Assembly (NCBI RefSeq): GCF_000576425.1
Contig: NZ_KK069993.1
Coordinates: 62,001 to 126,000, forward strand
Length of the DNA stretch: 64,000 bases
Direction of reading: 5' to 3'
From: Brachybacterium phenoliresistens
Lineage (GTDB): Bacteria > Actinomycetota > Actinomycetes > Actinomycetales > Dermabacteraceae
How positions within the stretch are numbered: position 1 is the first letter of the stretch; every line of letters begins with the position of its first letter. The notes under the pieces were generated by a model. The model was not told the origin of the DNA and did no database searches. It saw nothing but the letters and a program-made list of their open reading frames with translations. Position numbers and translations under genes: made by a program. Of this stretch, positions 9,057-61,021 are shown in pieces.

Positions 9057-9140
9057 CGCGGACGCGACGCGCTTCCCTCTCCTGACGCCAGGGGCGCCGG
9101 AGATCGCCGCCGTACCCGAGGCTCCGCCGACTGCGAGCGC

Positions 9141-9556: not shown

Positions 9557-9606
9557 TCGTGGTCGGACGGAGAACCGTTCGCCCACCGATCACGGAAGAG
9601 TCGACG

Positions 9607-11321: not shown

Positions 11322-11432
11322 GGAGGCGTGCCGACGTCCGCATCGTCCCCGAGACCCGTGGCGCCGTGCTCCCTGCGGGAGGACGGCGAGCCGCCGCCCC
11401 GGGGCGCCGGCGAGGAGCACCGGGTCGAGGGC

Positions 11433-41793: not shown

Positions 41794-42059
41794 CCACCCT
41801 CGCCATCCTCTCCGGGGAGGGCGTGGGCGTGGCCCTCGCGATCGCCATGCTCGTTGCCGTGCTCGCCCAGTCCCTCGGCGTCCTGGGGCAGATCATCAAC
41901 CTGCACTTCGACAATCGCGCGGACCATTTCGCACCGCGCGGGGACTTACGCGGCGTCACGCTCATGATGTGGATCCCTCCGATCCTGTTCTTCCTCTCCA
42001 CCTTCATCCCTGCGTTCCTCGCGGCCCTGCTGGCACGGGCCGTATCGAAGGATCCATGA
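41788..42059 (+). pseudogene. PTS mannose-family EIIC fragment
   Basis: About 90 codons correspond to the middle of EIIC: a VIGTTLAILSGEGVGVALAIAM membrane helix, the ADHFAPRGDLRGVT loop and the following membrane helix, ending ARAVSKDP. The first 80 or so and the last 90 or so residues of a normal EIIC (about 260 aa) are absent. With the EIIB truncation this implies one internal deletion of several hundred bases, plus loss of the 3' end at about 42.06 kb, where lower-G+C sequence starts. Confidence 0.72.
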
Positions 42060-42097: not shown

Positions 42098-43819
42098 CTA
42101 CCGCGACCTCGCATTGTGGGCCGGCTTCAAGCATTCAAAAGACCACAGACCCGACCTCGAATCACCTTTTACCTCAAGGCCACCCTTCTTCATGATTCGG
42201 CCGCAGGTCGCGCAGTACATTGAGGCGGCTATAACTTCGACCGCCTCGGCGACCTGCTGCGCTTCCTCCGGGCTTATTGAATCGGCCTCCGGATGATAGT
42301 GAGCCCCAAACAAGTTTCTTCTTTGTTGAAGGTCGCTGAGTCGACCTGCCGCGTCGCGAACTCTTTCGTCTGAGTTGGCCCGCAGAACATCGACAACGGG
42401 CACCAGCAGATCGCCTATGGTGTACTTATCATCAACGGCGCGACTTACCCTGCACCGGAAGATCATCGACAAATGCTCAAGAATCGCCTCAAGGACGCGC
42501 CCTGCAGTGGCCACCATCAGCACCGGACTACCGTGGTGCTCCTTAACGAACTGTAAATCGCTCAACATTCCTGGATTCAATGTCTTCGCGTGTGGCGTCA
42601 CCGCCCCCGGTTCTCGACGCAATTCCAGCAAGTGTGGCTTGACGCCGAGTTCTGCAGAAAGCGACTTGACCAAAATTTCGGACCATAAACGGTCATGCAT
42701 CGTTATTATCAGCTGCCAATCAGGCAGATCCCGAACGATAGCATGCATCGCGCCCTGACGCAATGGTGCATCTACTGATTGAAAAACATCATCAAGTATA
42801 ACCACCTTCGCTTGGCCCAGATTTGCCGAAGCGGTATGCACCTTCACCAGGATGAGCAACGCCAGCAGATCGAGATACGCTTCACTCAGCACGCCATCAG
42901 GACTGACTTTCGTTCCATTCGACAACTCAAGCATGGCACGCAAGCCCGACTTGCCGACTATTTCAAGTTCAACTTTTTCAATCCAAGGAATGTTTGCAAT
43001 TTCTCGGAACTGAGACGCAATCCCGTTCCCGGCAGGCTCGATGACCGACCGCAGTTTCTCGTAATCAATCTCCGGCTTTTCTTCAATTTGCTTCGCCAGG
43101 GAGCGGCCTTCGATTATTCGGAGAAACGAGTATTCGAAGTCTCGCCATATATCTTCAAGTTCGAACCGTTCTTTCTGCGACATGCGGACGCTTGCGGCCC
43201 TCTGAAATAGATCAGTCCGCAACGATTCAAGAGTCTTCACCGTTCGGGGTTCACGCACGGCTTTTAATTGAAGTTTCCGCCTTGCAAGGTTTCTGAGGTC
43301 CTGCAGGTCCCGTTTTCCAAACTTCACATATTCGCAATAGGAATCCAAAATCTGCTGCTCGCTCGGCGTGCGCCATCCGGCAACATTCGGCTTGAAGTAG
43401 TCCCAGAATACTTCAAGGCGATACTTTTCTGGCGCACCCCAAAATGTTTCAACAGATTTACGCCGGATGATTAGCGGAGCAATCGAGAATGCGTCATGCG
43501 GCTGTCGGTTTTTTGCTCCTTTTCCTCGCGCCAAAACCTCTCCGTTCGAGAGCTCTACAGTCACGGCGGGGGCGCGATTGGTTACCAAGTTCGCGAGCTC
43601 ACGACGATCTTTCTCGCCGCCGATATATCTACGGCTCACCGACCCTCGTACACCGAACTCAATCGCTTCGCAGATACTGGACTTTCCGCTGCCATTCGAT
43701 CCGAGTATGAGAAGTGGTGGCGTAAGAGATCCCGGCGGCGGCGGCGCTTCCGGAAAGTCAATGGTGAATGGGCCTTGAATGCCGCGGAAGCACTGAATAG
43801 ATACCGATCTAACATACAT
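42098..43819 (-). CDS. ABC/SMC-type ATPase with C-terminal HEPN domain (candidate abortive-infection effector)
   Basis: 573 aa. The RecF/SMC-like head has Walker A GSNGSGKS (40-47), a degenerate signature LSEAYLDLLALL, Walker B with D-loop VVILDDVFQSVD and H-loop TMHDRLW. The C-terminal 120 residues are helical and contain Arg501-Asn502-x4-His507 (RNLFGAH) between a long helix and SPEEAQQVAEAVEVI, the R-N-x4-H pattern of HEPN ribonucleases. A CxxC...C...H zinc site ends the protein. Base composition is clearly lower in G+C than the surroundings, and A/T-ending codons are common, so it is a recent arrival. AGGAGG lies 8 nt before the ATG at 43819. Tentatively a one-gene defence system. Confidence 0.75.
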   Translation of the reverse strand: MYVRSVSIQCFRGIQGPFTIDFPEAPPPPGSLTPPLLILGSNGSGKSSICEAIEFGVRGSVSRRYIGGEKDRRELANLVTNRAPAVTVELSNGEVLARGKGAKNRQPHDAFSIAPLIIRRKSVETFWGAPEKYRLEVFWDYFKPNVAGWRTPSEQQILDSYCEYVKFGKRDLQDLRNLARRKLQLKAVREPRTVKTLESLRTDLFQRAASVRMSQKERFELEDIWRDFEYSFLRIIEGRSLAKQIEEKPEIDYEKLRSVIEPAGNGIASQFREIANIPWIEKVELEIVGKSGLRAMLELSNGTKVSPDGVLSEAYLDLLALLILVKVHTASANLGQAKVVILDDVFQSVDAPLRQGAMHAIVRDLPDWQLIITMHDRLWSEILVKSLSAELGVKPHLLELRREPGAVTPHAKTLNPGMLSDLQFVKEHHGSPVLMVATAGRVLEAILEHLSMIFRCRVSRAVDDKYTIGDLLVPVVDVLRANSDERVRDAAGRLSDLQQRRNLFGAHYHPEADSISPEEAQQVAEAVEVIAASMYCATCGRIMKKGGLEVKGDSRSGLWSFECLKPAHNARSR

Positions 43820-43876
43820 TAGACTTGCCTCCTGGGCTTGAAGTCCTCCCCCACTCAACGTCTTAGCGGGGTTACG

Positions 43877-43973: not shown

Positions 43974-46505
43974 CTACACGGTGGAGCCGTTCAACATTTC
44001 GCTCACCTCCCCACTCCACGCCACCGCCAACCGATCTCTCGCCCGCGACGCCCCCACATACAACAGCGACCGTTCCTGCAGTTCCGCCGCCTCATGAGTC
44101 TGCTCGTCATAGCTGCGGCCCGGACGGTCGTCGAGCGAGTCGGCATCTATGCCGAACAGGACCACTCGGGTGAACTCCATGCCCTTGGCCCGGTGGAAGG
44201 TCATCGCCAGCGGCGCGCCCTTGCGATATGCGACGTTCCGGTCCACCGAGGCGACAGGGATGCCGCGGTCGTCGAGGCCCCGCACCAGCAGGTCACGGGT
44301 CGAGGCCCACCGGGTCAACAGGCCGATGGTGGAGAGATCCTCCTCCGGGCCCATCTCCTCGGCCCATTCGCGCAATAGCGCGGCGACCTGCTCGAGCTCG
44401 TCGGCGAGGTCACGAGCCGGCAGCAGCAGCACCTCGGGGCCGCTGCGGGCGGACCGGTAGACGCCGTGATCCCCGCCGTGCTCGAGCGGGGTGCCGGTCT
44501 CGTCCACGTCGTCCTCCATGGCGGCGATGTCGAAGTCGCCGCCCTTCAGTACGTTCACCGCGAAGGCCAGGTTCTGCGCGGTGGTGCGGTAATTGAGCTT
44601 GAGGCGCCGTGAGCGCCCGCGGATCCCGATGCCGTACCGGCCCAGCTTCACAGGATTGGAGTAGATGCGCTGGTGCGAATCTTCGGCGATGAACATGTCG
44701 TCGTCGCCCTCGGCGACCAACGCTCGCAGTAGTTGCCACTGCGTAGGCCGCAGGTCCTGCCCCTCGTCCACGAGGACGTGATCGGCGGGCCTCTCCCCCG
44801 TCGCCTCGGCCTGCGCATCGAGCACCGCAGCGGCGATGGCCGAGGTCTCGTCCCAGTCGATGCTCGCGGAGCGTCGGCCGCCCTCCCGGTACACGGCGAC
44901 GATCGCCCACACCTCGCGGCGCTGGTTGCGACCCAGGCGCGTCCCGCGACCACCGCGCGGAACCCGGAGGTACCCGGTCTCGTCGAGGATCCGGTGCGGG
45001 AGGATCACCTCGCGGTACTCGTCCGCGAGGAACGCGGCGCTTGTGTGCGCCTGGGTGCGGTCGCGCACCGCGCCGGAGGCGACGGCCGCAGCGATCGCGA
45101 TCTCCCAGTCGTGGGCGCTGCGCGAGTACTTGGGACTGCGCGTGTCCCAGCCGACGACCGCGCGCATCGGCGCGGCGAGGGCGCGGGAACCGGAGATCAC
45201 CCCATGTGCGATGCGGTCCACGCCGGTGACGTGGATCCCGGGACGGCCCAGCACGTCCGTGCGTGGCGCCCCGGGCTCAAGGGTGCGTACCTGCTCCTCG
45301 AGCGCGTCGGCGAGGTTGCGCGTGTAGGTAGTCAGAACGATCCGGGCCTCGCGTCCTTCCGCCTGCGCCTCCTGGGCCAGGCGCACCGCTCGGTGCACGA
45401 GGACCACCGTCTTGCCGGTCCCGGCGCCGCCGGTGAGCCGGTAGGGACCGCGGGTGCGAACATAGACGTAGGTGCGCTGCTCAGGGTGCAGGAAGATGCG
45501 CCACTGGGCGAAGCTCCCGGAGGCGAGCACCTTGGCGAGAGCGTCGTCGTCCTCGATGAGGTGGTAGCTGGCCTGGGACTTCTCCGCGGTCAGCGACTCG
45601 ACGATGTCGTCGGTCGAGGACGGGGTCCCGACATCGCTACCGCCATTGACTCCGGTGAAGTACGCCTCGCGTACCTCGTCGAGGGTCTTGCCGGTCGCGA
45701 GGTCGAGCAGCGCGGAGCCCTGCCAGGAGCGGGCGCCCTCCGCGAGGTCCAGCAGGGCGGCCTCATCGGCCTCGACCGCTGCGGCCGCAAGGACGGGGTC
45801 GATGCCGAGGACGTCGATGAGTTCTTGCGCGGTCACGCTGAGGACGGGGCCGGACCGGCCGACACTCCCGGTCCCGCCGTCCACGGCCGGCTCCGTTGTC
45901 CCGCCGTCTTCGTCCGATGACTGGTCGATCGGTCCCGCTTGGGCGCTCGACGCCTGTTCCGCAGGGGCCAGTGATGACCCCGGCTGCTGCTCCCCCGCGT
46001 CAGGGGCCCCCGACGGCTTCTCGTCAGGTTCTGCCATCTCGGCGGCTCGACGCTCCTGCTCGAGACGCTCAGCTTCCTGCCGCTGGAACTCGGCGAGCTG
46101 CTCGGCGGCGAGCGCGGCGGCACGCGCCTGGACCTCGGACTCGGACAAGCCTCCGGCGCGCAGCGCGTCCTCGTCGGTACGGATCTCCGTGGTGCCGGAG
46201 ACCGGGTTCATGCGCAGGTACAGCTTCCGGGCCCGGCGGTAGGCGTCGTCGTGGTCGTAGACGCCCTCAGCGAGCCACAGGTCCTGGCCCGAAGAGTTCA
46301 GCCGGAACGCAAGGATCCGGTACTGCTTGTTGACGCGGATCGAGCGGATCCGGTCATCGGCCGCCTGGTAAATGGGCTCGACATGCAAGCCCGGGGACTC
46401 CGGAGTGGTGCGCAGCAGGTTGAGGGTCGAGGTGACCTGCCCCAGGAGAGAGCGCGGTATCGATTCGAGGAAAGTATCGGAGATGGAGATGATGCCGTCG
46501 CTCAT
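43974..46505 (-). CDS. UvrD-like SF1 helicase with RelE-like N-terminal domain (last gene of the DISARM-like operon)
   Basis: 843 aa. Residues about 8-105 resemble the RelE/ParE mRNA-interferase fold (RSIRVNKQYRILAFRLN, then LWLAEGVYDHDDAYRRARK). A charged linker with a Pro/Ser/Glu-rich stretch (about 130-220) follows. The SF1 helicase then begins: Walker A GGAGTGKT (about 360), DEGQD Walker B (about 580), QRIYSNPVKLGRYG, and a UvrD C-terminal SLLYVGASRARDRLAV. No nuclease motif is seen. Whether the RelE-like part still binds RNA is unknown. The ATG overlaps the upstream helicase stop by 4 nt, so it is the fourth cistron of the operon. Confidence 0.8.
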   Translation of the reverse strand: MSDGIISISDTFLESIPRSLLGQVTSTLNLLRTTPESPGLHVEPIYQAADDRIRSIRVNKQYRILAFRLNSSGQDLWLAEGVYDHDDAYRRARKLYLRMNPVSGTTEIRTDEDALRAGGLSESEVQARAAALAAEQLAEFQRQEAERLEQERRAAEMAEPDEKPSGAPDAGEQQPGSSLAPAEQASSAQAGPIDQSSDEDGGTTEPAVDGGTGSVGRSGPVLSVTAQELIDVLGIDPVLAAAAVEADEAALLDLAEGARSWQGSALLDLATGKTLDEVREAYFTGVNGGSDVGTPSSTDDIVESLTAEKSQASYHLIEDDDALAKVLASGSFAQWRIFLHPEQRTYVYVRTRGPYRLTGGAGTGKTVVLVHRAVRLAQEAQAEGREARIVLTTYTRNLADALEEQVRTLEPGAPRTDVLGRPGIHVTGVDRIAHGVISGSRALAAPMRAVVGWDTRSPKYSRSAHDWEIAIAAAVASGAVRDRTQAHTSAAFLADEYREVILPHRILDETGYLRVPRGGRGTRLGRNQRREVWAIVAVYREGGRRSASIDWDETSAIAAAVLDAQAEATGERPADHVLVDEGQDLRPTQWQLLRALVAEGDDDMFIAEDSHQRIYSNPVKLGRYGIGIRGRSRRLKLNYRTTAQNLAFAVNVLKGGDFDIAAMEDDVDETGTPLEHGGDHGVYRSARSGPEVLLLPARDLADELEQVAALLREWAEEMGPEEDLSTIGLLTRWASTRDLLVRGLDDRGIPVASVDRNVAYRKGAPLAMTFHRAKGMEFTRVVLFGIDADSLDDRPGRSYDEQTHEAAELQERSLLYVGASRARDRLAVAWSGEVSEMLNGSTV

Positions 46506-49500
46506 CGGGCAGTTCCTTCCGTCAGTCCCAAGGCCTCGAGGACATTGTCGGCACCGGGTCCGACGATCCTCCAGCCGTCTCTCTCGAGGGCGGCAAGATC
46601 CCGCTGCGGGAGTGCTTCCACCACGTAGGCTCGCCGCAGGTCCGGCCAGGCGATGTCCAGGGGGATGCCCGGCCCGAACTCTTCGCCGATCACCGGTACG
46701 TCCATGCCGAGCCGGGCGGCAGCCACGATGATCGCGCGCTCGGTACCGGTGAGGACCTCCTCGTACGGCTCCTGCCACTGGGGCGGAAGGCCGCTGGCAT
46801 CGACTTCCGTGGGCTCGGCGAGGACCATGTAGTCGGCCTGCTGCTTGTGCCGGGTGTGCTCGGCGTCCGCGACCGGAGCACCATCCGCGAGTGCATCGGC
46901 AACGCCAGGAGCAGACGATGCGACGGACGGCTTGCGTGACGCGTCCGCGCCCTGTCTCGAGGGCTCCTGTGCGGGGACGTTCGGCGCAGCTGCGGGGAGC
47001 TGCGCATCGACGGTGACGTCGATGCCGGACTCGATGAGGCTCATCGTGGTCAAGCGCAGCGTGCCGCCGTGCGGGTCCCCCTGGGCGAGGTTCGCCATCT
47101 GCGCCCAGGTGCGCCAGGAATCCTCGAAGGTGGGCCGATGCATCGCCGCCTCGCGGTCGTCGAGGACCAACGTGAGGTTCCGGACGCCCACGCCCAGGAG
47201 GGCGATGGCGGCGAGCTCGTCACTGCGGCGCGCGATCGCCATCCGAGTCGGGTCAGTGAACGGCTCCGGGGTCTTTCCGTTCAGGAGATGGCTCGCGAGG
47301 TCCTGGACCTCGTCCGGATCCGCGCTGGTCAGCGTGCTGCGATTCCGCGCGGAGACGAGGAGCTGGGGCAGCTCGTAGGCGAGCTGCTGGAGCCGGTCGG
47401 TGCGACCGGTTCGCAGCACATCGAGGAGGAGCTCCATCGGCGTCGCGCGCAGGAGCGGAGCGAGCTGGCGCGTGGTGACGGTCCCCTCCGACCATGCCAG
47501 GACGGTCTCCTCGACCAGCGGACTCGGCAGGGGCGCGGTGTAGGCCCGCTTCGGGGCCCTGCGCCGGGCCGAATCTTCTTCGAGGTCGGCGTGAGTGACG
47601 GTGAGGACGACGTAGCCGGCGCGGCGCAGGCGCATGCGCTTGACGGCGTCGTCGCCCACCCGGTTGTTTCCGCTGGTGGCGTGGAAGGCGCGGCCGTCGG
47701 TGTAGATCGCGATGCCCTCCACATCGGCCCCGGACCAGGTGAGCACGAAATCGGGTCGCGTCCCGACGATATCGACCTGCGCGCTGAGCGTGTAGGTGCG
47801 GCTGGCGGTGCGCACGCTCACGGAGCTGCCGTGGGTGCTCACGCTGGCCCCCTCGATCTCGCCGGCGGCGGCCATGAACGCACGCCGGAAGCGCGCTTCG
47901 AGCGCCGACTCGGACGGGGAGACGGACTCGGGCTGCTTCTCCTCCACGGCCCAGGTCATCTCGCCCTTCTGCGGCCGATCGGCGCGCAGGACGATCTGCA
48001 GCGCCTCGATCGCATCCAGACGACGCATCTGCGGGTACTCGTCCGGACGGACGTAGGGCAGCAGGCATCGGTGGCAGGCCGCGAGGCCCTCGTCCTGGCA
48101 GGGGCACGCCTCGAGAGCGTCGAGGGCCTCGACGAGGATGTCCCAGGCGCTGCGCGGGGAGGCGAGCTCCATGAGGTAGCCGGTGCCACCGGGGATGGAG
48201 TCGGACAGCAGCACCGCGGAGCTCCCGCTGTGCTGGGGGTGTGCGATGACGTCGAGCTCGACGTTGCCGATGCTGCCGCCGAAGCGGGTCTCGATGCCCA
48301 GCTGGAGGGCCGCGCTGAGGTTGAGCAGCAGCGCACCGGAGGGGTCCTCGAGGATCTCGCCCGGAAGCGTGATGAGCACGGTCTCCGTCTGCACGGTGCG
48401 GGACAGGAGCACGGGGACGTTCCGCCCCTCGCGCTCGTAGCGCAGCGAGCACCAGACCTGATGGTCCTGGGGCTTGTTGCCGTCGGTGTCGGTGTCGTGG
48501 TGCCCGCACTCCTGACAGATGAGGAAGCCGGGGGCGGTGCGGTCCTGCCCGGAGATGCGGATCGTCTCGGCGACCTGGTGGGGGCGGCCGAGGTTCAGGC
48601 GGGTCAGGGTGGTGCCGCGGTCCAGGGCCATCCCGAACCCGGTGCCGGGCACGCTCCACCGCTGCAGGGGCGTCGCCTCGTGGAAGGAAGCGGACAGGGC
48701 CGTCTCGAAGCGGACGCGTTCGCGGTCGTCGCGGGAGTCGCCGATTCGCGTGCGGCTGCGGTTCATGGTCGAGTAGACGCGGGTCAGGTCGATGACGTCG
48801 CGGTGCTGGCCGGCATCGGCGATCTCCTGAGACCGGCACTTCGGGCAGGAACGGGGCGGGGTATCGCGCTCGAACCGGTGGGCGAAGCCGCAGCGGGGGC
48901 AGAAGGCGGTGCGGTGCAGTCCGCTGCCGCCCACGCCGATGTCCACGGCGTCGATCACGAGCTCGCGGCCGTGGGCGTAGAAGTGCGCCCCGGGAGCGAG
49001 CTCCGTCAGGGCCGCCATGCCGGAGCGGCCGTAGCTGGCGGCGACGTGCTGCCAGGTGCCGTCGTCGTCCTGCCAGATGACGGTGGCCTCGAGGGCGACG
49101 GCGTCGTCGACGAGGGTGAAGTTGGGCAGCAGGCCGTGCATCTCGAGCACGCCGATCCAGTGGGCGGAGTCCGCGGCGGCGGCCTCGGCGCTGAGGCGCC
49201 CGGCAGTGCCGCGCAGGCGACGGCGCTCCGCTTCGCGCTCCTCCTCGGTCATGACGGTCTCGTCTCCGAGGATCTCCTGCTCGGCGGAGATCAGGAAGTT
49301 CTCCGCCTCGAGCACGCGGCGGGTCTCCTCGCGTGCTTCCGGGTCGGGCACGGTTTCGAGCTCGTCGAGGTTCGCCTGGATCCGGGCGCGCCGGCGGCGC
49401 AGCTCGTCCCGCTTGTCCCGCCAGGCGCCGGCGGCGCGCTCGATGGTCATGACGAGGCCGCTGCGGCCCTCCGCGTCGGGCAGCGCCCAGGCACGCAGCG

Positions 49501-52500
49501 TGTCGCGCGCCTGCTCGGTCAGGCCGTCCCAGGCGTGGGCACCGATCGTGAACTGCGCGAGGAACCGGTCAACGTACGCGGGGCCGCGCTGTTGCATCTC
49601 CTCGATGACATGTCCCAGGTAGGTGCCGGGGCCGATGTCGGCGAGGATCGGTGTGGTGCGGGCGGGCGGACTGATGCGCTCATCCCCGGAGAGGGCATCT
49701 ATCACGGACGCCAGGAACTGGCGACGGAGGATCTCCTCGGCCGAGAGGTACGCGCCCGGGGCGCGGACGGTGCCGTTGAGCAGGTCGAGCGGGTCGTAGA
49801 AGAGGCCCGCGGTGCGGCCGCGGCCCGCGACCAGCGTGACGTCCAGGGAGTTGCCGGTGAGGCGACCCGCGCGGCCCACGCGCTGCAGGTAGCTGGCGAC
49901 GGTCTTCGGGACCGAGGCGAGCAGCACGGTGGACAGGCCGCCGATGTCGATGCCCATCTCGAGGGTGGGGGTGGCGACCAGGACGTTGGGGGCGCCCGGG
50001 TCCTCGGAGCTGTTCTTGAACTGGGTCTCGTGGGCGAGGCGGTCCTCGGTGGTAAGCAGGGAGGTGTGCTCGCGGGCGACGACGCGCCGCATGTCCCCCT
50101 GGTAGAGGGATCGGTAGTAGGTGGAACGGATCCCGTGCGGGCGCAGACGTCCTGGGCAGCGGAAGCGCAGGCAAGGACCGTCGGCAAGCTGCGTGAGACT
50201 GTGCGTGGTGCCGGTGACGGTCTCGCGGCACTCGGAGCAGCTGAGGGAGGGCGTGGGAGCCTCGGCATCGGCCGTGGCGGTGCTGGGCAGGCAGCCTTCG
50301 AGGCGATCGGGACGCACGGCGAAGCTGCGCAGCTGCCCGCCGGGGCCGGCCGGGACCGCGTCGAGGATCCCCAGCTCGACGAGCTCGTCCAGCAGAGGGC
50401 GCAGGAACGTCGCGGCAGTGCTGCGGTCCCGACCCAGGGCACGGGCCGTCCAGTCGGCGTACCAGCTGCCACGAGAGGCGGCATCCTCGAACTCGCAGGT
50501 CTTGCCCCGGGGGCCGATGCTGGGCAGCTGCGGGATGGCCCGCCCGGGCGGGAAGGCGGGCATGACGTCCCGTTCAGGGCGGCCGCCCCACAGCCGGTAC
50601 AGCGGCCCGCCGTCCTCACGGAACTTCTTCAGCCAGGGGTGGCTGATCGCGCCGTGGGTGCGCAGGCGCTCCAGGATCCCGCGGCCCCAGCGGCGCCGCT
50701 GGGCGGCGCTGTCCCCGTCCAGCAGAGGTGCGCTCGCGCCGAGGGCGCGCTCGGCGGCCTGGTCGAGTTCGTGATCAGCGGCGCGGACCTGGGCCTGGGC
50801 CGATCCGGTGAGCAGGAGCGTCCGGCCCACCTGACCTGTCAGGCCCAGTTCGAGGCCCACGTCGAAGCGGAGGCGGGAGCGGACCAGCTCCTCGGCGCGG
50901 TGCCGCTTCTCGGAGCGGAAGCCGCGGCGACGAGGGGGATCCTGGTGCCAGAAGGGGGCGAGCCGTTCGGAGTCGGTGATGGTGGGGTGCAGCAGCCGGT
51001 AGCGCTGCTCGTCGTCCTGGGCGGCGGCGATCATGCGGTCGACGATCTGGTCGAGCGTGGCGGGTTCAGCCCGCAAGGCGCTGTGGATCGCCGAGCGCAG
51101 GGTGAGGCTGTGGGAGCGGGCCTCGACGAAGCCTGCCCGGTGCGCCGCGTCCTGCACAGAGTCGGTGAAGACCAGCGCCTTCTTCTCGCGCATGTCGAGT
51201 CCGGGTGTGCCGAACAGGCTGGTCAGCGCGACCGAGAGGAGCGTGGCGAGGCTGGTGCCGAGGAAGCGGATGCCATCCTTCTCCCCACAGGCGGGGCAGG
51301 TGTCCTCCAGCGCCTTCTCCCCCGCGTCGAGGCCGGCGAAGACCAGGACCTGGATGACGTTCGGGTCCGGGTCGTCCTCGAGGGGGCCGTGCACGTCGAG
51401 GGTGGCGGAGTCGAGGTTGAGATAACGGCGGCGGGAGGATTCCTCGGTGGTACGGTCCGCGGCCTCCTCGCGGGTGGTGATGTCGAGGATCAGTGCGCGG
51501 AACCGCTGCTTGTTGTGGAAGGCGTCCTGGCGGATCTTGTCCGGGGTGAGCTCGAGGTCGTCCCCGACGGCCCTCGTGGTCGCGCCCCAGCCGGAGCGGC
51601 CGCAGTGACGGCAGTAGATGGCAGGCAGGGCCTTGCCGCTCTCCTCGCCGGCGGCGTCCGACCACTGGAACGCGGGCGCGCCGGCGACGAGACGGTCCAC
51701 GCGGGTGATCTCCCGCAGCCACAAGTGCGCTTCGAGGGAGGGGAAGGAGTTGCGCGGCGCTCCCTCGCGGGCGCGCTCGTGGGAGAGCGCGGCGAGCAGC
51801 ACCGTGGTGAACCCGCGGGCGACGGCGTCGTCGGTGATGTTCGAGAAGACGGCGCGGGCGAGATCCTCGAGCGCCGTGGCCGTGGTGGTCAGGGCGAGGA
51901 GCGTGCCGGTGGTCTCGTGCGCGAGCAGAAGGTCACGCACGGCGAAGCCGTGGGCGGCGGCGGTCCGGGTCGCGGGGACGTCGGGGTCGTCGCTGCGCCA
52001 CAGCACGTCCAGGAGGTCGCGGGTGAGGGCGTCTGCGTCGACCGCGGTGCCGGGTTCGAGGTGCCGGGCGCTCACGGCGCGCAAGTCCTCAGCCGTCGGT
52101 GCGGTGGGCGTGAGGGGCGCGCGGGCCCCGTGGACCGTGGTGGTCGCGGCGGTCGCGGGGGCGAGGAAGTCGTCCAGCGCGACGCGGGTCTCGGTGATGA
52201 CCGCGTCCGGGCCGATGGGACTGCCGAACACCGTCTGCGCGAATTCGAGCATGTCCGCGGCGGCGTCGTCGCCGTCGCCCAGGGTGGCGCTGGTGGCGAC
52301 CGGAGTGATGTGCACGCGGCCGGGGGCGACGGTGTCCAGCACCAGGCGCAGGCGCCGCAGCAGCATGCCGACGTCGGTGCCCTGGGCGCCGTCGTAGGTG
52401 TGGAACTCGTCGAGGATCAGGTAACGCAGCGAGGCCGCGGATGCCTCCCACAGGGGGCGGTCGGCGCGGCGCAGCAGCAGCTGGTCCAGCATCTTGTAGT

Positions 52501-53152
52501 TCGTCAGCAGGATGTCCGGGACGCTGCCGCGGATCATCTCTCGGTCGGTGATCAGGCTCTTCTCGGTGACGACCGTGGAGGACTGCGCGGAGGCCTCGCC
52601 GGTGTACAGGGCGGCGGCGATGCCCCGGTAGGCGGGGGTGCCCGTGATGGCCTGGGCGAGTCGCCCGGCCTGGTCGTTGGCCAGCGCGTTCATCGGGTAG
52701 AGGATCAGCGCCTTGATCCCCCCGATCCCGGCGCTGCGCGCCCTCGCCACGTGATCCAGCACGGGGTACAGGAAGGACTCGGTCTTCCCGGAGCCGGTGC
52801 CGGTGGTGACGATGGTGGGCAGCGGCAGGCGCAGCCCGTGCTCGTCCTGCTCCCCCGGCACGGCCGGGTTCGTGGTCAAGCGGGAGAACGCGGTCGCTTG
52901 ATGAGCGTAGGGCGCGAACCATTCCGGCAGGCTCGGGACAAGAGCACGAGCCTCCTTCGTGTTGACCCCGGCGGCGAAGGGCAGGCGGGTGCGGATGTAG
53001 GGCCCCTGGAAGATGCCCGCATCCTCGTGCTCGAGGAAGGCGTCCAGGGCCGTGCCCACGGAAGGGTCGGCGAGGGAGATCGCCGTGGTCACGTAGTCGA
53101 GCACGGCCCGCCGCAGGTCGGCGGCCTGCCGGGTGGGCAGCAGCTCCGTCAT
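46502..53152 (-). CDS. Very large DEAD/DEAH helicase with DUF1998 and Vsr-like nuclease-fold region (DrmA/DrmB-like)
   Basis: 2216 aa. The N-terminal helicase lobe has TGTGSGKT (117-124) and DEFH (248-251). A large insertion separates it from the second lobe, with TPTLEMGIDIGG (about 1064) and QRVGRAGR (about 1094). Cys clusters at about 985 and 1425-1440 and a CPCQ...CHRC DUF1998-type site (about 1687) follow. At about 1757-1853 a VDIVGTRPDFVLTW...AIYTDGRAFHA...RLRRAGYVVLTVTHADL pattern matches the Vsr/DUF559 endonuclease fold, but Tyr replaces the usual Glu of I-E-V-D-G. A 360-aa tail completes it. DISARM splits helicase (DrmA) and DUF1998 (DrmB); here they look fused. Start overlaps the methylase stop by 4 nt. 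Confidence 0.85.
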   Translation of the reverse strand: MTELLPTRQAADLRRAVLDYVTTAISLADPSVGTALDAFLEHEDAGIFQGPYIRTRLPFAAGVNTKEARALVPSLPEWFAPYAHQATAFSRLTTNPAVPGEQDEHGLRLPLPTIVTTGTGSGKTESFLYPVLDHVARARSAGIGGIKALILYPMNALANDQAGRLAQAITGTPAYRGIAAALYTGEASAQSSTVVTEKSLITDREMIRGSVPDILLTNYKMLDQLLLRRADRPLWEASAASLRYLILDEFHTYDGAQGTDVGMLLRRLRLVLDTVAPGRVHITPVATSATLGDGDDAAADMLEFAQTVFGSPIGPDAVITETRVALDDFLAPATAATTTVHGARAPLTPTAPTAEDLRAVSARHLEPGTAVDADALTRDLLDVLWRSDDPDVPATRTAAAHGFAVRDLLLAHETTGTLLALTTTATALEDLARAVFSNITDDAVARGFTTVLLAALSHERAREGAPRNSFPSLEAHLWLREITRVDRLVAGAPAFQWSDAAGEESGKALPAIYCRHCGRSGWGATTRAVGDDLELTPDKIRQDAFHNKQRFRALILDITTREEAADRTTEESSRRRYLNLDSATLDVHGPLEDDPDPNVIQVLVFAGLDAGEKALEDTCPACGEKDGIRFLGTSLATLLSVALTSLFGTPGLDMREKKALVFTDSVQDAAHRAGFVEARSHSLTLRSAIHSALRAEPATLDQIVDRMIAAAQDDEQRYRLLHPTITDSERLAPFWHQDPPRRRGFRSEKRHRAEELVRSRLRFDVGLELGLTGQVGRTLLLTGSAQAQVRAADHELDQAAERALGASAPLLDGDSAAQRRRWGRGILERLRTHGAISHPWLKKFREDGGPLYRLWGGRPERDVMPAFPPGRAIPQLPSIGPRGKTCEFEDAASRGSWYADWTARALGRDRSTAATFLRPLLDELVELGILDAVPAGPGGQLRSFAVRPDRLEGCLPSTATADAEAPTPSLSCSECRETVTGTTHSLTQLADGPCLRFRCPGRLRPHGIRSTYYRSLYQGDMRRVVAREHTSLLTTEDRLAHETQFKNSSEDPGAPNVLVATPTLEMGIDIGGLSTVLLASVPKTVASYLQRVGRAGRLTGNSLDVTLVAGRGRTAGLFYDPLDLLNGTVRAPGAYLSAEEILRRQFLASVIDALSGDERISPPARTTPILADIGPGTYLGHVIEEMQQRGPAYVDRFLAQFTIGAHAWDGLTEQARDTLRAWALPDAEGRSGLVMTIERAAGAWRDKRDELRRRRARIQANLDELETVPDPEAREETRRVLEAENFLISAEQEILGDETVMTEEEREAERRRLRGTAGRLSAEAAAADSAHWIGVLEMHGLLPNFTLVDDAVALEATVIWQDDDGTWQHVAASYGRSGMAALTELAPGAHFYAHGRELVIDAVDIGVGGSGLHRTAFCPRCGFAHRFERDTPPRSCPKCRSQEIADAGQHRDVIDLTRVYSTMNRSRTRIGDSRDDRERVRFETALSASFHEATPLQRWSVPGTGFGMALDRGTTLTRLNLGRPHQVAETIRISGQDRTAPGFLICQECGHHDTDTDGNKPQDHQVWCSLRYEREGRNVPVLLSRTVQTETVLITLPGEILEDPSGALLLNLSAALQLGIETRFGGSIGNVELDVIAHPQHSGSSAVLLSDSIPGGTGYLMELASPRSAWDILVEALDALEACPCQDEGLAACHRCLLPYVRPDEYPQMRRLDAIEALQIVLRADRPQKGEMTWAVEEKQPESVSPSESALEARFRRAFMAAAGEIEGASVSTHGSSVSVRTASRTYTLSAQVDIVGTRPDFVLTWSGADVEGIAIYTDGRAFHATSGNNRVGDDAVKRMRLRRAGYVVLTVTHADLEEDSARRRAPKRAYTAPLPSPLVEETVLAWSEGTVTTRQLAPLLRATPMELLLDVLRTGRTDRLQQLAYELPQLLVSARNRSTLTSADPDEVQDLASHLLNGKTPEPFTDPTRMAIARRSDELAAIALLGVGVRNLTLVLDDREAAMHRPTFEDSWRTWAQMANLAQGDPHGGTLRLTTMSLIESGIDVTVDAQLPAAAPNVPAQEPSRQGADASRKPSVASSAPGVADALADGAPVADAEHTRHKQQADYMVLAEPTEVDASGLPPQWQEPYEEVLTGTERAIIVAAARLGMDVPVIGEEFGPGIPLDIAWPDLRRAYVVEALPQRDLAALERDGWRIVGPGADNVLEALGLTEGTAR

Positions 53153-56100
53153 GAACTCTCCTCCATGCGTCGCCGGAACTCGGCGTAGGCGGTGCGCATG
53201 TCCGCCTCGCGGTCGAGGATCCGGAACGGCTGCTCGTGTACAACGGTGCGGCCCGTGCCGGTGGCGCTGGGGTGCACGGCAGTGCGGTCCTCGAGCGGCA
53301 GGCCCGTCTCGGGGCGGCCCGCCTTGTTCCAGGCGGTGCGCACCGAGCTGGGGATCTGCCGACCGTTCGCGTCGAAGATGTACGCCTTCTTGCCCTCGCC
53401 GCGGTCGTAGTCGTTGAGGACCCCGAACTGGGTGCGGTAGATCGTCACCAGGTCGTCGATGGAAATCCCGGTGACGATCGCCATGATCGCGTCGATCTCC
53501 ACCAGCGCCTGGCGGCGGTCCTCGTCGATGCGCAGCGGCGTCGCGGCGGTCCACTCGGGGCCGACGTCGCCGAGGGCCGGGCGGTTTGGTCGAGTCAGGC
53601 CGCAGGTCCAGGAGTCGGCGGCGAAAGACGGATCGAAACAGTCACGCCAGAGGTCCGCGTAGGCGGTGGTGAGGCAGTTCAGACGGAGGGTGCGGAGGAT
53701 TGCGGTGGGGGCCAGGGGGTGGCTGGAGAGGATGCGCGGAAGACGATCTACAGCATCCTTGTGAATATCTCCCGACACCGTAGAACGAATCTCAAAATCG
53801 GCAACAAGACTGGACATAGACGCTGCCGCGAGAACCAATTCCGCGATCGAGCCAGAAAAACACCCTATTGCATGGACAGGGTGCACATGCCCAGCTCCAG
53901 GCGGGAAAATAGCAGGAATCAACGTTCGTTCACCCGTGGTGGCCGCCATCCGGCGCCACATAACCCGGTAGTGATCTCGCACAGGCGTCGTCTTGTCGGG
54001 CTTTCCCACTGGGTCATAGGAGAGCACCCATTTGCCGTAGTCCGCGTCGTAGCGGCGCGTGTCCGCGACCTCGGAGCCCGTCTCGTCGATGCGCGTGCCG
54101 TAGATCGGCTTGTACTCCGTGATCGGCAGGGCGTCCGGCGCGAGCCGCTCGAGATCAACGGCCGAGTAGTCTCGATTACTGGACATCGTCTTATTTCGAG
54201 CACTCGCGAACGGATTACCCACAGCGAAATACGGCCCTTGAAGGATCACGTCGCGCCACGACTCCGGGGCACCCCAGCGGCTCTCGAAGTGCCCGGCCCG
54301 ACGGCCTCCAGATTCGTGCCACCCGGAGGAGAACTTCGGCGTCATACCACCGATCGACGCGACCTTAGCGAGCTGCGCGAGTGTCCCCGCGGACGCCCCA
54401 TTAACGCTAGAGAGCATCCGACTCCGAATGAATGGCACTTCCGGGTCGCCGGATTCCATGAGTGCGTGCCACAGTTCGAGCTGCCGCCGCCCGTTCCGCT
54501 GTATGCGAGCTCGATGCGGACTTAGGTCCCAGTTTCCCTCCACATCCTTAAAGCCAGGCTGCGGCCCGTGACCGTCATGTCGCAAAGATCCTTCAATGAC
54601 TGCCGGATGATATACGCTCACCGCACTCAGGAAATCAACGTCCGACGCATTCACGTAGACGTTGATCGAATATTCGACCAGATTGTGAACTTCGCGAAAC
54701 AACTTTAGATCGTTGATGAACCGCCAGTGCCGCCGCAGCCGCGAGAAGGTCGCTCCACGCAGCGAGTAGCCGCGCGCGTCCGTAAGGTGTGATGCCGGGT
54801 GGATGAGCGTGACCACCCCACCGTCCCGCAAATGGGCCCACGTGCGCGCCATGAAATTGCGGTAGAGATCCGGCTGCGTCCCCACCAGCTCGGGATACAT
54901 CGATTTGGCTCCCGCGAACTCGGCTGTCGCCGAAATATCTCTAGTGCCGAGCAGCAGCGACTGTGCAGGGCCCCCACGCGCGAGCGTGGATTCTCGACGC
55001 TCCATCTTCTCCACTTCGCTCGGCTTGTTCGCAAGCACCCACCACGGGTCAAAGTCCGCCAGCAGCGCGGGTACGTCTAGGGTCGGCCGTACCCACGGTG
55101 GGTTCCCCACCTGCAAGTTGAAGCCGCCACGATCGAACGCAGCGGCGAAGTCCAGTTCCCAATGGAAGAAGCGCTGTTCCCGGGCGACGTCCCGCGCGCG
55201 CTGCAGCCACGGGGTCTCGGCCGTGAACACGTCGATGTTCGCCGCGCCGCTCACCGAGAACATCGACTCGATGGCGTCCAGTCCCTGCCAGGTGCGGACA
55301 TCATCCACGGCGATCTGCGCGGGACCTGGGCCCTTGCTCTTGCCCTTGTGCGCGACGACCTCGAGACTGCGGCCCAGGATCTTCTGGAGCGTGTCCAGCC
55401 ACTCCTCGAAGGTCGGGGGCGAGACCTCATCATCGGGAAGGACGGGCCAGAACCACAGGGCGCACCAGGCGTCCATCACCAGACGCAGCCGCTGGTAGGA
55501 GGAGTTCGAGTCGTTCAGGCTCTGCTCGATCTGGGCGCGGGTCACCTCCCCGCCCTCGGTGGTCTCCGCTCCCCACACGGGGATGGCGCGGCGGGCATTG
55601 GCCTCCGCCGCGACCACGCGGCGCAGCGCCAGGTTCCACAGCTCCTCCACCCGCTGCGACAGCTCCTCCAGGATTTCCAGCTGGGTCTTCGTGAGCTTCT
55701 TTCCCCAGCCCTTCGCGTGGTCCCGCAGGGCCTTGGCCTGCGCCGGGGCGAGCTTCTTGATCTCCGTGTCGGAAGCGGCTGCGAGCCACCCCTCCCCCGG
55801 CAGCAGGAAGTGGAAGATCCCGCCGGAGACGCTGGGCCGCTTGCCGTCCCCGGCCGGGTCGTCCCGCACCGTCGTCACCGGCAGCGGCCGCGGCGATGTC
55901 TGGACGACGTCCTTCAGGCGCTGCGTGTCCAGCGCGGCGCGCGAATAGATGCTGTGCCGGGCACCGATCAGGGAGTTGCCGGCGCGCAGCCGCAGGCCGA
56001 ACCACGGTGCCTTCAGCCCGGGGGCCATGGTGTCCAGCCAGAGCGACACCTCCGCCAGCTCCACCGCGGTCGGATTCAGGTCCACCCCGTACACGTTGTG

Positions 56101-58100
56101 CAGGCGATGTAGGCCTTGACGCGCTGCAGCTCCTGCGCGTATTCGTCCGGGTCGATGCGAGTGTCCAGCTCGGCCTGGCGGCGGGTCAGGTACTCTTCCG
56201 CCAGCTGCCGGACGGCCTCGATGGCGAACGCGCCGGAACCGAGCGCCGGCTCGCAGATCGACATCTCGAGGATCTCCGCGGCGGTGGTGCGGCGCCGGCG
56301 GATCGGGTGCCTGTCGAAGTCCTGATCCTTGAAGACCTCGGCGCCCTCTGGCAGCACCGTCTCCTCGTTGACCACGGGGTCCAGCAGTTCCGCGAGCCCC
56401 TGGGAGACGGTGAACTTCGTGATCACCTCCGGCGAGTAGTAGGAGGCGGACTGCTGGCGGGCGCGACCGGAGAGGCGGAAGACGAACTCGCCGTGGCGGT
56501 AGGTGCGCGGCGTCTTCTCGCCGTACTCGTCCTCGACCATCACCAGATGGGGGCGCATGGACTCGTCCACGCGATCCACCGGCACCACCCAGGAGCCGTT
56601 CTTCGGGTCGCCGTTGCGCGCGACCTCCACTAGGTCCTGGTCCGCGAAGGAACCGGTGTAGCTCATGAGCGACTCGTACACGGCTCCCAACTGGTTGATG
56701 CCCAGCGCCACGTAGCTGATGAAGCCGCGGGCCTTGCCCTTCTTCTCCTTGGACAGCAGGAGGTTCTCGAGCACCTTCTGCAGGGCGGCGTTGCCGAGCT
56801 GCACCTCGTCGATGAGCCGGGTGCGCTCCGGGGCGAAGAGGTCCGCCTCGAGGTTCTCGAAGACGAGGGTTCCGCTGCCGTGCTGGGCGGCTTTCCCTTC
56901 CTCGAGCTCCTCTGGCGGGGCTCCGTGGCCTGTGTTGACCAGGCGGAACAGCAGGTCGAGGGACTCGTACAGGTAGGTGCCGTCCGCTGCGGAGAGGGGG
57001 ACCTCCCGCTGGGTGAGGTCGCGCAGCCGGTCCACCGAGTAGCCGGCCTGGTACTCCTGCGTGCCCACGGGGAGGATGCCCAGCTCCGGGCTCGCCTCCG
57101 CGTACAGCAAGAACAGGATCCGGTACAGGTACCGCAGCGCCTGCAGGGCCAGGACCTGTGCCTGCTCGTTCGGCAGCGGCTCGAGCCTCTGGGCGCGGCG
57201 CCGCTCGAGCACCTCGTTGGCGATGATCTCGATGCTCTCGCGGACCCCGTCGCGCAGGTCCGCGGAGACGCCCACGGCGTTGCTGATCGACTCGGCGACG
57301 GTCTCGCTCCACCAGATCTGCGAGTTCGCATCCGGTGCCAGGGAGTCGGCGCTGAGGGCGGCGAGCATCCGCTCGACCTCTCCCCCGCGCTTGAGGTCGT
57401 TCCGCTCGGCGATGGTCTGGATGTCCGCCACCAGGTATCGGCCCTGCGGCCACAGCCGGGAGGAGGTCAGCACCGCGTAGCGGCCGGCCAGGACCAGCAG
57501 GAACTCGGGGGCATCGCGGTCCACGGACAGAGCGGAGAGCACCTGCGGGACGGTGGTGAGGACCTGTTCCTGCTCCGTGCCCTCGTGCAGGACCACATCG
57601 GCCGGGAGGTGGCCGGCGTGCTTGGACAGCACGTCCTCGACGTCCTCGGCGGCGAGGGCGTCGAGCATCGCCAGCGGGGCCTCGCCCACGCCACGAGTCG
57701 CGTATCGACGCAGCGGACCGGTGACGTGCACCTCCCAACGCTCGGGGACCGGGGCGGTGCCGTCGGTCGGGTCGTCGGTGTAGCAGAGGATCGCGCGGAG
57801 GGCATCGGCCACGTCGATCGAGCGCTCGGCGAGCCGCTCACGGCGCTCGGCGCTCGCGGCCTGCTCGGGCAGCGCGGCGGCATCGGCCTGCAGGTCCAGC
57901 AGGCGGGAGAGCAGGGCGGTGCGGGAGCTGGTGAAGCGCTCACGGGGGCTGCGCCACGAGGGGGTCTCCTCGGACGTCTCGCGCCACCTGTCCATCAGGG
58001 CGCGAGTGCGGGCGGCGAAGGAGCCGGCCCGGTCCTCGGAGACGAAGTAGTGCTCGCTGATCCAGTCCTCGACGATGTACAGGGCATCGCTGATGGCCAC
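53149..58100 (-). pseudogene. Large N6-adenine DNA methylase (DrmMI/PglX-like), split by a one-base frameshift
   Basis: Frame 1 runs from GTG 58100 to 56076 and holds the N-terminal region and motif I (CEPALGSGAFAIEA, about residue 620). Frame 2 resumes at HNVYGVDLNPTAVELAEVSLW and contains the catalytic NPPW (about residue 1000) and the target-recognition region, ending at 53149. Adding one C (G on the plus strand at 56103-56104) joins them into about 1650 aa, the size of DISARM class 1 or PglX methylases. As sequenced, motif I and NPPW are on separate polypeptides. GAGGAGGA precedes the GTG, 11 nt after the SNF2 gene. The recognition region (about 53.75-55.1 kb) is less G+C-rich than the rest. 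Confidence 0.8.
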
Positions 58101-58111
58101 AGGGGTCCTCC

Positions 58112-61021
58112 TCAGGCTTCCGTGCGGGGGACGACGACGAGCAGCGGGCGCACGAAGGTGCGTTTCGGTTCCATCCCGGTGACGAGCTTCTTCTCCACCT
58201 CGATGGCATCACGGGTGGCCAGCCGCAGGGACGACTGGCCGCGAGTGCGGTCGGCATCGGCCTTCCAGCGCAGCTGCTCCTGCTCCCAACGGTCGACGCG
58301 GGCCCGGGCGCGGGCCTTCAGCTCCGGGGAGATCTGCTCCTCCATGAACGTGCGGGCGACAGGGACGGCGGCGCGCAGCAGCGCCTGGTACCGGCCGGGG
58401 TCCTCGACTGCGGTGCCGACGGACTCCGGTCCCAGCCCGATCTCCTCGAACAGGGCCGAGGGCGTCGTATGCGGCACCGCGCGCGGAGTGCCCTGATAAT
58501 CGGCGATACCCAGGACGGACGCGGACACGATCTGGCCTCGCTCGGTGGTGAGCGTGCCTTGGAAGATCACCCAGGGGCGGTCCACCTCACCGTGTATGGC
58601 GAGCACCTGACCGCTGGGCAGGCCCGCCAGGGTGCGGTCGCTGATCCAGTCGAGGACGGGGTGCAGCGGGCCCAGGTAGTGCACGTCGGGCCAGTTGGTG
58701 CCGGTGTCGTCGGTGAGGGCGGCGCGCAGGCGCTGGGAGGCGACGTCCCGCCGGGAGGTGAGCCGCACGGTCTCCAGCACGCGCCGGTCCTTCAGGTAGG
58801 ACTGCGGCAGGTGCTCCAGGCGGCGGATCAGGTCCTCCCGCGGGGTGAACTGGATGAGCCCGGTCGCCTGGTCAAGCTCGAGGCCCACGCCGCCCTGGGC
58901 GACGGGCCGGCCGGGTTCGGGGTGCAGCTCCGTCAGGCCGTTCAGCAGGAAGTCCGCGTCGCTGTGGAACAGGCCCGTGGTGAAGGACTCCTCGCGCTGG
59001 GCGCGGTGCCCGTCGCGGCGGCGCGGTGCGGGCTGGTCCTCCGCGAGCAGGGCCGCGAGGAAGTCGCCGAGGGGGTTCACGGAGGAGACGTCCGGGAGGA
59101 CCTCGTCGACGGGGACGGCGCTGCGCAGCACGTCGATGAGGGCGCGCTCCTCCGCGGCGGCGTCGTACTTCTGCATGAGGGAGGCGGCATCACCCAGCTG
59201 TTCGTGCGCCTCCTTCTCCCGCTGCAGCAGGCGGCGCAGCACGTAGATGTCGCCATCGAAGCCGTCGATCCGGGAGAGGTCCAGCAACAGCGCGGTGATC
59301 TGCGGAGGCGTGCGCTGGCCGTAGCGATCGATGCGGCCGTTGCGCTGCTCGATGCGGATCAGCGACCACGGCACGTCGAAGTGGACCAGCTCGTGGCACT
59401 GGGCGTGGAGGTTCACGCCCTCGGAGGCGATGTCCCCGGTGATCAGCACGCGGATGGGCGAGGACGACTGCTTGAAGGACTCCACCACCCGCTGCTGATC
59501 CACATCGGTGAGGCCGCCGTGGAGGACGGCGATCCGCTCGTCCCGCATGCCCAGGTCCTCGAGCAGGTGGGTGCGCAGCCACTTGAGGGTCGCCACTCGC
59601 TCGGCGAAGACCACCACGCGCTCCGGCGAGGTGCGGGAGACGCCTTTGTCGCGCAGCAGGTCCACGAGGGCCCGGTACTTGCCCGAGCGTGGCGCGGTCC
59701 CCTCGGGGATGCAGGCCTCGTTCAGGGTGGCCAGGCGGCCCAGGGCGGCGGCCTCCGCGGCGTAGGCGCTGGTGGGCAGGATCTGGTCGAGGGAGTCCGC
59801 CTGCGCCTTGGCGAGCAGCTCGCGAGTGCGGTTGCTGAGGGTCTCGGCGAGGGCGACCGGGGAGGACAGGAACGCCTTGGCGAGGGTCCACGGGAACAGC
59901 TGGCTCCCGCGGCCGGACATCGGCCCCGAGCCGGAGGCAGGATGGGTCCAGGTCGCCGCGATCTCCTGGGCGACGGCGAGCTCCTGCGGGGACGGCTCGA
60001 TGGGCAACAGCTCCGGCGGGCGGCGCTCGGCCCAGTTCTCGCCCACCACGTCCTTGACGGACTCGGAGTAACGGTGCCGTCGGATCATGAGGCGCTGCGT
60101 GGCGCCCTCGGCGATCTCCCGTTTCGGGGAGACCGCGGTGGGCTCGAGCAGGCTGATCAGCTGCGCGAAGGAGTCGTTGCTGCCGTTGTGCGGGGTGGCC
60201 GAGGCCAGGATCAGCGCGTCCGTGTTCGGGGCGAGGACATGGGCGAGCTGGTTGTTTTGCGTGGACTGGTTGGTGACGTTGTGGGACTCGTCGATCACCA
60301 CCGCGTCCCAGCGGTGGTGGCGCAGGTCGTGGACGAAGCGGTCCTGCTTCAGGGTGTCCATCGAGATGATCACCTTCTCGAAGAAGGTGAACGGGTTCCG
60401 TGAGACCGGCAGCTTCTGCTTGACCTGCTGCACGCCCTCGGAGTCCAAGCGGACGAACGGAATCGCGAAACGGGTCCACAGCTCGTGCTGCATCTGCTCA
60501 AGCACGTGGCGCGGGCACACGATGAGGATGCGACGGCCCTTCCCGCGGCGGATCAGCTCCGCCAGGATCATGCCGATCTCGAGGGTCTTGCCAAGGCCCA
60601 CCGCATCGGCGATCAGTACGCGGGGGCGCGCGCGCTCGGGGTCCAGTGCCAGCTCCACGGCTTCGCGCTGGTACGGGAGCTCGTCGGCGAGCATGTCGGC
60701 GGCGACCGTCAGACCCGGGTGGTCCACCGGGACGGGGCTCTTGCGCAACGTCGCCTCGATCCACAGGCGGGTGCGGCGGTAGCGCGGGGAGGTGTCGGCG
60801 ACCACGCGGGCGTCCTCCGGGTTCAGCGCACGAACCGTGTCGATGCTGGCGTAGAACGCGGACGACTGATCCTTCACGAAGTCGCTGACGCCGCGGACGG
60901 AGTACAGGGGACCATCCGCCGTGTCCTCCACGGCGGTGACCAACCAGGTCTCGTCGCGCACCACGACCAGCGAGCCGGGCGAGATCACGCTCGCCTCCCC
61001 CTCGACCACCTGTGCGTCCAC
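58112..61021 (-). CDS. SNF2-family helicase (DrmD-like), first gene of the DISARM-like operon
   Basis: 969 aa. An N-terminal beta-rich module (about 10-60) precedes an SNF2 ATPase: Walker A DAVGLGKT (about 138-146), DESH (about 240), ASATPHNG, then the C-terminal lobe with FAERVATLKWL and the arginine-finger motif QRNGRIDRYGQ (about 560). The tail (about 750-969) is all helical. It has the length and layout of DrmD, the DISARM class 1 translocase. It heads a four-gene operon with 11-nt, -4 and -4 spacing. The GTG at 61021 has AAGGGG upstream. Confidence 0.83.
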   Translation of the reverse strand: MDAQVVEGEASVISPGSLVVVRDETWLVTAVEDTADGPLYSVRGVSDFVKDQSSAFYASIDTVRALNPEDARVVADTSPRYRRTRLWIEATLRKSPVPVDHPGLTVAADMLADELPYQREAVELALDPERARPRVLIADAVGLGKTLEIGMILAELIRRGKGRRILIVCPRHVLEQMQHELWTRFAIPFVRLDSEGVQQVKQKLPVSRNPFTFFEKVIISMDTLKQDRFVHDLRHHRWDAVVIDESHNVTNQSTQNNQLAHVLAPNTDALILASATPHNGSNDSFAQLISLLEPTAVSPKREIAEGATQRLMIRRHRYSESVKDVVGENWAERRPPELLPIEPSPQELAVAQEIAATWTHPASGSGPMSGRGSQLFPWTLAKAFLSSPVALAETLSNRTRELLAKAQADSLDQILPTSAYAAEAAALGRLATLNEACIPEGTAPRSGKYRALVDLLRDKGVSRTSPERVVVFAERVATLKWLRTHLLEDLGMRDERIAVLHGGLTDVDQQRVVESFKQSSSPIRVLITGDIASEGVNLHAQCHELVHFDVPWSLIRIEQRNGRIDRYGQRTPPQITALLLDLSRIDGFDGDIYVLRRLLQREKEAHEQLGDAASLMQKYDAAAEERALIDVLRSAVPVDEVLPDVSSVNPLGDFLAALLAEDQPAPRRRDGHRAQREESFTTGLFHSDADFLLNGLTELHPEPGRPVAQGGVGLELDQATGLIQFTPREDLIRRLEHLPQSYLKDRRVLETVRLTSRRDVASQRLRAALTDDTGTNWPDVHYLGPLHPVLDWISDRTLAGLPSGQVLAIHGEVDRPWVIFQGTLTTERGQIVSASVLGIADYQGTPRAVPHTTPSALFEEIGLGPESVGTAVEDPGRYQALLRAAVPVARTFMEEQISPELKARARARVDRWEQEQLRWKADADRTRGQSSLRLATRDAIEVEKKLVTGMEPKRTFVRPLLVVVPRTEA

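Follow-up and report, generated by a model that had tools for sequence, protein, structure and literature searches.

The closest described system is ARMADA Type II, reported in a preprint by Bell et al. 2025 (15 September 2025; PMC12458937) from E. coli NCTC 12900 and ATCC 8739. There, a strict gene order is described, with a BrxHII/RapA-like ArmA, a PglX-like ArmB and a YprA-like ArmC that has a C-terminal Vsr-type nuclease. This last gene is almost always followed by ArmD, a GajB-like helicase with a RelE-like N-terminus. According to the preprint, the NCTC 12900 system protects against 13 of 80 phages and requires all four genes, and the defence in E. coli is direct and non-abortive, with no cell death. 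Most of the tested helicase and methylase motifs are required. The mutated residues are ArmA K136 and D236, ArmB G605 and N971, ArmC K110 and D234, and ArmD K266 and D454, with activity lost only partly in the ArmD D454 (Walker B) and ArmB G605 (GxG) mutants. Deletion of armB abolishes protection, and the passages describing it do not mention toxicity. In ARMADA Type I, the array usually starts with YprA, and the corresponding passages describe no RelE-GajB gene for this type (PMC12458937).

The four-gene operon and ARMADA Type II

We analysed a window of 64,000 nucleotides from Brachybacterium phenoliresistens (contig NZ_KK069993.1, positions 62,001 to 126,000). It contains the following genes, given in operon order:

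58112..61021, minus strand: armA, 969 aa with a GTG start, a BrxHII/RapA/DrmD-like Swi2/Snf2 (SF2) helicase
53149..58100, minus strand: armB as a whole, a methylase in two open frames
56076..58100, minus strand: armB upstream piece, a 674-aa open frame with the SAM-binding motif PALGSG
53149..56106 (5' limit approximate), minus strand: armB downstream piece, in the other frame, with the catalytic NPPW and the remainder of the protein
46502..53152, minus strand: armC, 2216 aa, a YprA-family DEAD/DEAH helicase with a Zn-binding MZB and a candidate Vsr-like PD-(D/E)xK nuclease at about 1745-1860
43974..46505, minus strand: armD, 843 aa, a RelE-like N-terminal domain (about 1-110) fused to a GajB/UvrD-type SF1 helicase

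From these coordinates, an 11-nt gap is followed by two 4-nt overlaps (11, -4, -4), and the operon is probably a single transcript. As written, it does not encode the full set of four proteins, since armB is broken.

Pfam assigns SNF2-rel_dom and Helicase_C to the first gene, Eco57I to the downstream piece of the second, DEAD, Helicase_C and MZB to the third, all in one protein, and UvrD-helicase and UvrD_C to the fourth. The upstream piece of armB alone has no Pfam match. In PADLOC, used here as the 2023 model set, ArmA matches DrmD with 313 bits and BrxHI/BrxHII with 180. REase_MTase_IIG gives 443 bits with the upstream and 760 bits with the downstream piece of armB, and DrmMI gives 97 bits with the upstream piece. 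The best model for ArmC is DruE3 (280 bits), and ArmD matches NERD+UvrD (81 bits) and GajB (67 bits). Given that all four genes match known families in PADLOC and Pfam, they are not chance ORFs. The operon is thereby spread over DISARM, type IIG, Druantia and Gabija parts, and none of the matches in this release bears the ARMADA name.

As reference we used E. coli ATCC 8739, whose ARMADA II operon lies at L034:4558-20799. Both operons carry, on one strand, BrxHII/RapA-like, PglX-like, YprA-like and RelE-GajB genes in the same order. ArmA has 35% identity to its counterpart (416 bits) and ArmC 30% over 7-1859 (661 bits). The upstream piece of armB matches ArmB residues 189-656 (262 bits) and the downstream piece residues 652-1642 (432 bits). 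ArmD matches with 221 bits, and its N-terminus gives a further match of its own (54 bits).

All eight Type II residues mutated in PMC12458937, which carry the same numbers in the ATCC 8739 proteins, align to an identical residue in the window proteins. These are the Walker A K145 and DExH D244 in ArmA (E. coli K136 and D236), G621 of GxG in the upstream and N335 of NPPW in the downstream piece of ArmB (G605 and N971, here in separate frames), K123 and D248 in ArmC (K110 and D234), and K365 and D580 in ArmD (K266 and D454).

The locus is almost certainly an ARMADA Type II anti-phage operon (ArmA-ArmB-ArmC-ArmD) with a frameshifted armB in this assembly. It shares with the described system the order, strand, small spacings, domains (the Vsr-like one of ArmC as a candidate) and the eight mutated residues. 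On the other hand, the aligned stretches are just about 30-37% identical to the E. coli proteins tested, armB is frameshifted, and the flank has three GmrSD-type genes and an AAA ATPase gene. The BrxHII-like, PglX-like and YprA-like genes are also common to ARMADA Type I, whereas the window has the order A-B-C-D with ArmD. This is a known system in a divergent actinobacterial copy, and not a new kind of system. The locus adds such a case to ARMADA II, and shows how the 2023 defence models divide an operon of this type among DISARM, type IIG, Druantia and Gabija labels.

A sequence-only reading of this DNA had described the four-gene minus-strand operon, and its coordinates and spacings were reproduced, with the spacing also making its single transcript probable. 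It rightly took the first gene as DrmD-like (DrmD/BrxHII-like) and the second as a DrmMI-like methylase (DrmMI/PglX-like). It was also right in counting the UvrD/RelE gene as part of the system, as ArmD is part of ARMADA Type II (PMC12458937). Its statement that the architecture matches no named subtype does not hold, since ARMADA Type II, as described in the preprint, has the same order and domains. The HMM searches that it proposed were run, with the four proteins matching several different PADLOC models and not one.

DISARM, Druantia and the roles of ArmC and ArmD

The earlier reading placed the operon near DISARM class 1, with drmA and drmB fused and drmC replaced by the UvrD/RelE gene. 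This is very improbable. ArmA and ArmB do match the DrmD and DrmMI models, and the YprA family is common to DrmA/DrmB and the window helicase. However, this helicase reaches only 60 bits with the best DrmA model, against 280 bits with DruE3, and ArmA scores 334 bits against the NCBIfam DISARM DrmD model, below its cut-off of 610. Pfam scans of the operon proteins and of flanking genes turned up no drmC PLD nuclease. Compared with DISARM class 1, the window has the helicase and a DUF1998-type module in one protein, and an extra RelE-UvrD gene. With no drmC, no separate drmA and drmB, and the DrmD cut-off missed, membership of DISARM class 1 was rejected. Furthermore, of the 80 loci kept as the best of 559 candidates, 41 have A-B-C-D together, which points to a settled system of its own. 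The proposed drmA-drmB fusion is better described as a 2216-aa DEAD/Helicase_C/MZB protein nearer to ArmC/DruE than to DrmA, while the absence of drmC and the relation to DISARM, through the DrmD and DrmMI homologues, were seen correctly. Of the wording "variant or sister of DISARM", the sister is near the published view, and the variant gives way to ARMADA Type II.

That the operon is a type III-like relative of Druantia carrying additional genes is less probable still, and close to excluded. DruE3 is the best PADLOC model for the large helicase, and both systems have such a helicase of the YprA family that includes a Zn-binding MZB/DUF1998-type module. As no ARMADA name occurs among the PADLOC 2023 matches, DruE may be just the nearest available name. 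The comparison with ATCC 8739 gives 661 bits to ArmC against 127 bits for the best segment of DruE, in this one strain. In contrast to Druantia III, the window has a methylase and an SNF2 helicase, and DruH is matched neither by any operon protein nor by the AAA ATPase (six window proteins compared with DruH of ATCC 8739 at E 1e-5). In the right-hand flanking genes, no Druantia name appears among the PADLOC matches listed. Without a DruH match and with the helicase apart from DruE in the tree, membership of Druantia III was rejected.

That tree is a quick ML tree of 25 rows, where the window ArmC falls with E. coli ArmC in a clade of 19 rows with a support of 100. The clade leaves out DruE and the helicases of two loci with Type I order (L056, L062). 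Its closest neighbours among the rows come from Brachybacterium tyrofermentans (L096) and from two genomes marked as belonging to the same genus (L035, L036). The sampling is small, with long-branch warnings that include DruE; Type I is represented by gene order only, and the rows leave out the reference proteins of the preprint and the housekeeping YprA of the window's own genome (L072).

The C-terminus of ArmC is a candidate Vsr-like nuclease, as judged from sequence. Nine residues do not vary in any of 10 ArmC rows (E1752, Q1792, P1800, D1801, D1819, G1820, H1824, D1835, R1839), and five of these, E1752, D1801, G1820, H1824 and R1839, are also constant across 41 ArmC C-termini (numbering offset 1734). 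Among these 41, Pfam reports MTES_1575 in 13 and Vsr in one at E <= 0.1; the window C-terminus has no Pfam family match. When 10 ArmC relatives were scanned singly, MTES_1575 was found in two, with 20.3 and 18.3 bits against a Pfam cut-off of 38.2. The two located MTES_1575 matches fall in the candidate Vsr-like domain. A model of the C-terminus (482 aa, 41-row alignment of the window and 40 of 76 eligible relatives, pLDDT 81.4) has no Foldseek match at E <= 0.001, with TnsA at E 0.34-0.77 as a mere hint. A profile of this region against PDB sequences gave 10 matches, the best being engineered/armadillo-repeat proteins; these were judged to be chance matches of a helical stretch.

For the ArmD N-terminus, an AlphaFold2 model of 120 aa was built from a 40-row alignment (the window and 39 of 68 eligible relatives), with a pLDDT of 87.8. 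Foldseek returns 8 PDB matches at E <= 0.001, the best at 9.2e-5, and all 8 are described as YafQ, YoeB, YoeB/ParE or RelE. This region is therefore predicted to fold like the RelE/YoeB/YafQ toxins.

In the most likely mechanism, recognition and self-marking would be the task of ArmA (a dsDNA translocase/remodeller) and ArmB (an N6-adenine methylase), by analogy with BREX and DISARM. ArmC would unwind invading or replicating phage DNA, and its candidate Vsr-like C-terminal nuclease may then cut it. ArmD, a UvrD-type helicase with a RelE-like RNase domain, could act as a second effector or as a processor. We infer this division of labour, together with the nuclease activity, the self-marking of DNA by ArmB and the role of the RelE-UvrD protein. 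A similar effector role for ArmC is suggested by its kinship with the system described in a related preprint (PMC13192584).

The frame break in armB

The break lies near 56.1 kb, between the SAM-binding motif and the NPPW motif. It was already hinted at in the earlier reading, which spoke of a repaired operon, and the methylase was indeed found as two frames. The two pieces abut at residues 651/652 of ATCC 8739 ArmB, and the upstream piece loses homology near its residue 667-672, at the break. Among close relatives, armB is one open frame and intact at this site in all three compared, namely the same-genus L035 and L036 and the Brachybacterium L096. The downstream piece matches a single place in its own genome, where the search found no second copy of armB. 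As regards programmed frameshifting, the three close relatives are intact there and a long homopolymer is absent.

The frameshift may be a sequencing or assembly error, with the system intact and active in the cell. We regard this as quite possible, if somewhat short of probable. The assembly is in 35 contigs, and armA, armC and armD are intact, with the residues tested in E. coli. Furthermore, the window differs from the three close relatives at the site by a single small length difference only. Against an error, the longest homopolymer run near the site is 3, and armB is split or truncated within the locus in other genomes (L048, L085, L092, L100). Real loss thus seems to occur, unless those are errors too.

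We counted a gene as intact when 80% of its profile was found in one frame, over loci that are partly redundant. By this rule, 72 loci have an intact armB and 6 have a short one that does not lie at an edge. These six are split (L048, L100), rearranged (L085), truncated (L092), a relic (L066), and L146, where armB begins 94 nt from the contig end and may be cut. For armA, 62 loci are intact and 3 short (L056, L062, L064, all divergent homologues), with L133 in two frames yet counted as intact. The corresponding numbers are 113 and 2 (L056, L062) for armC, and 111 and 5 (L066-L070, a relic and distant homologues) for armD. On these plain counts over few loci, armB tends to be the gene most prone to break.

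Since E. coli ARMADA needs ArmB, a broken armB in the window, if real, predicts a copy that does not defend. As written, the window copy is thus predicted to be inactive, provided that the break is not an assembly error. This touches the activity of the copy and not its family membership by descent. The broken allele need not be toxic, as deletion of armB in the preprint abolishes protection and toxicity is not mentioned in that account. A broken armB beside intact close relatives is a natural test of whether ARMADA can persist without its methylase.

Gene order among relatives and flanking genes

Among 297 genomes of the order, 37 have relatives of ArmD at E <= 1e-30, including that of the window (40 match rows). 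One stretch was fetched for each of the 36 other genomes and the loci were counted by eye. A-B-C-D in order was found in 20 (with A cut in L042 and B split in L048), B-C-D in 2, and C-D with the rest at or past the stretch edge in 5. The other 9 do not have the ARMADA Type II arrangement.

A second set comes from a scan of genome contigs, with the best 80 of 559 confirmed candidates kept. It overlaps the set of 36, so that the counts are not independent, and L044 and L098 share an identical ArmC. ArmC followed by ArmD was found in 76 of these best 80 loci, which is the gene-order check that the sequence-only reading had asked for. The four exceptions are L079, where the ArmD frame starts inside armC, and L095, L127 and L129, which end at a contig or locus edge. 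The script counted A-B-C-D in 41 of the 80; L096 also has it, failing the script's overlap rule. In the remaining loci at least one of the two upstream genes did not appear; among the visible causes are contig ends, insertions, a broken armB and the limit of the 10-kb flank. In viral contigs, C then D occurs in 6 of 8 loci.

Some loci have other arrangements. In L056, L062 and perhaps L064, an ArmD-like gene goes with an array that is partial or starts with YprA. In L056 and L062 the genes are YprA, ArmA-like, ArmB-like and then ArmD-like, which is the Type I order; an ArmA-like gene and ArmD are all that was seen in L064. ARMADA I with ArmD would be a mixed type. In L059 the ArmA-like and ArmB-like matches lie on the strand opposite to ArmD, and L067-L070 are distant UvrD-type relatives. 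L066 (G174, same family) is a relic, with an armB piece and the armD end side by side and nothing else seen. A tandem armD pair follows armC in L050 (G283) and L073 (Nocardia), and the latter has a third ArmD-like gene ahead of armC.

More than 300 nt, and up to 8.6 kb, separates armB and armC in 18 of the 55 loci that have both of these genes (best 80 of 559). These are L077, L083, L085, L089, L090, L097, L100, L105, L113, L120, L125, L129, L130, L141, L143, L147, L150 and L151, with armB itself broken in L085 and L100. We scanned 10 inserted proteins from 10 of these loci with Pfam, and 8 have a match: Schlafen AlbA_2/HATPase (L125, L141), GmrSD (L090), caspase-helicase (L113), NERD-kinase-helicase (L151), DEAD/ResIII helicase (L097), DprA (L105) and HSP70 (L130). 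The inserts of L143 and L083 have no Pfam match. A term search of the main text of PMC12458937 found no description of such inserts. The junction might be a cargo slot for differing defence-like genes. The operon would then be a modular platform in which the methylase half can come apart from the nuclease half, or be lost while the latter stays. The broken armB of the window would be one step in that direction, perhaps towards an ArmC-ArmD pair independent of the methylase. We consider this unlikely.

Lastly, the flanks of the window operon contain the following genes, with three GmrSD-type restriction genes beside it, at window 62693-64000 and beyond:

L071:4694-6844, 8276-10165 and 10167-12170: GmrSD-type genes, one with a RAMA domain
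L071:6864-7970, opposite strand to the GmrSD-type genes: PDC-S30-like gene
window 42098-43858: AAA/RecF-SMC-like ATPase gene (Pfam), downstream of armD

The GmrSD-type and PDC-S30-like genes form a defence island with the ARMADA operon. Neither Druantia III nor Zorya II was found among the flanking genes scanned. The stretch with the AAA ATPase gene has 53% G+C, against about 70% in the rest of the region. With its protein (42098-43816) as query, tblastn at E 1e-8 found nothing in the 36 loci of relatives, and the gene was therefore not counted as a fifth gene of the operon. At the left edge of the island (window 40951-42059) lies a sorbose-type PTS operon, apparently damaged, with EIIA, EIIB and then an EIIC piece that matches profile positions 72-162 of 233 only.
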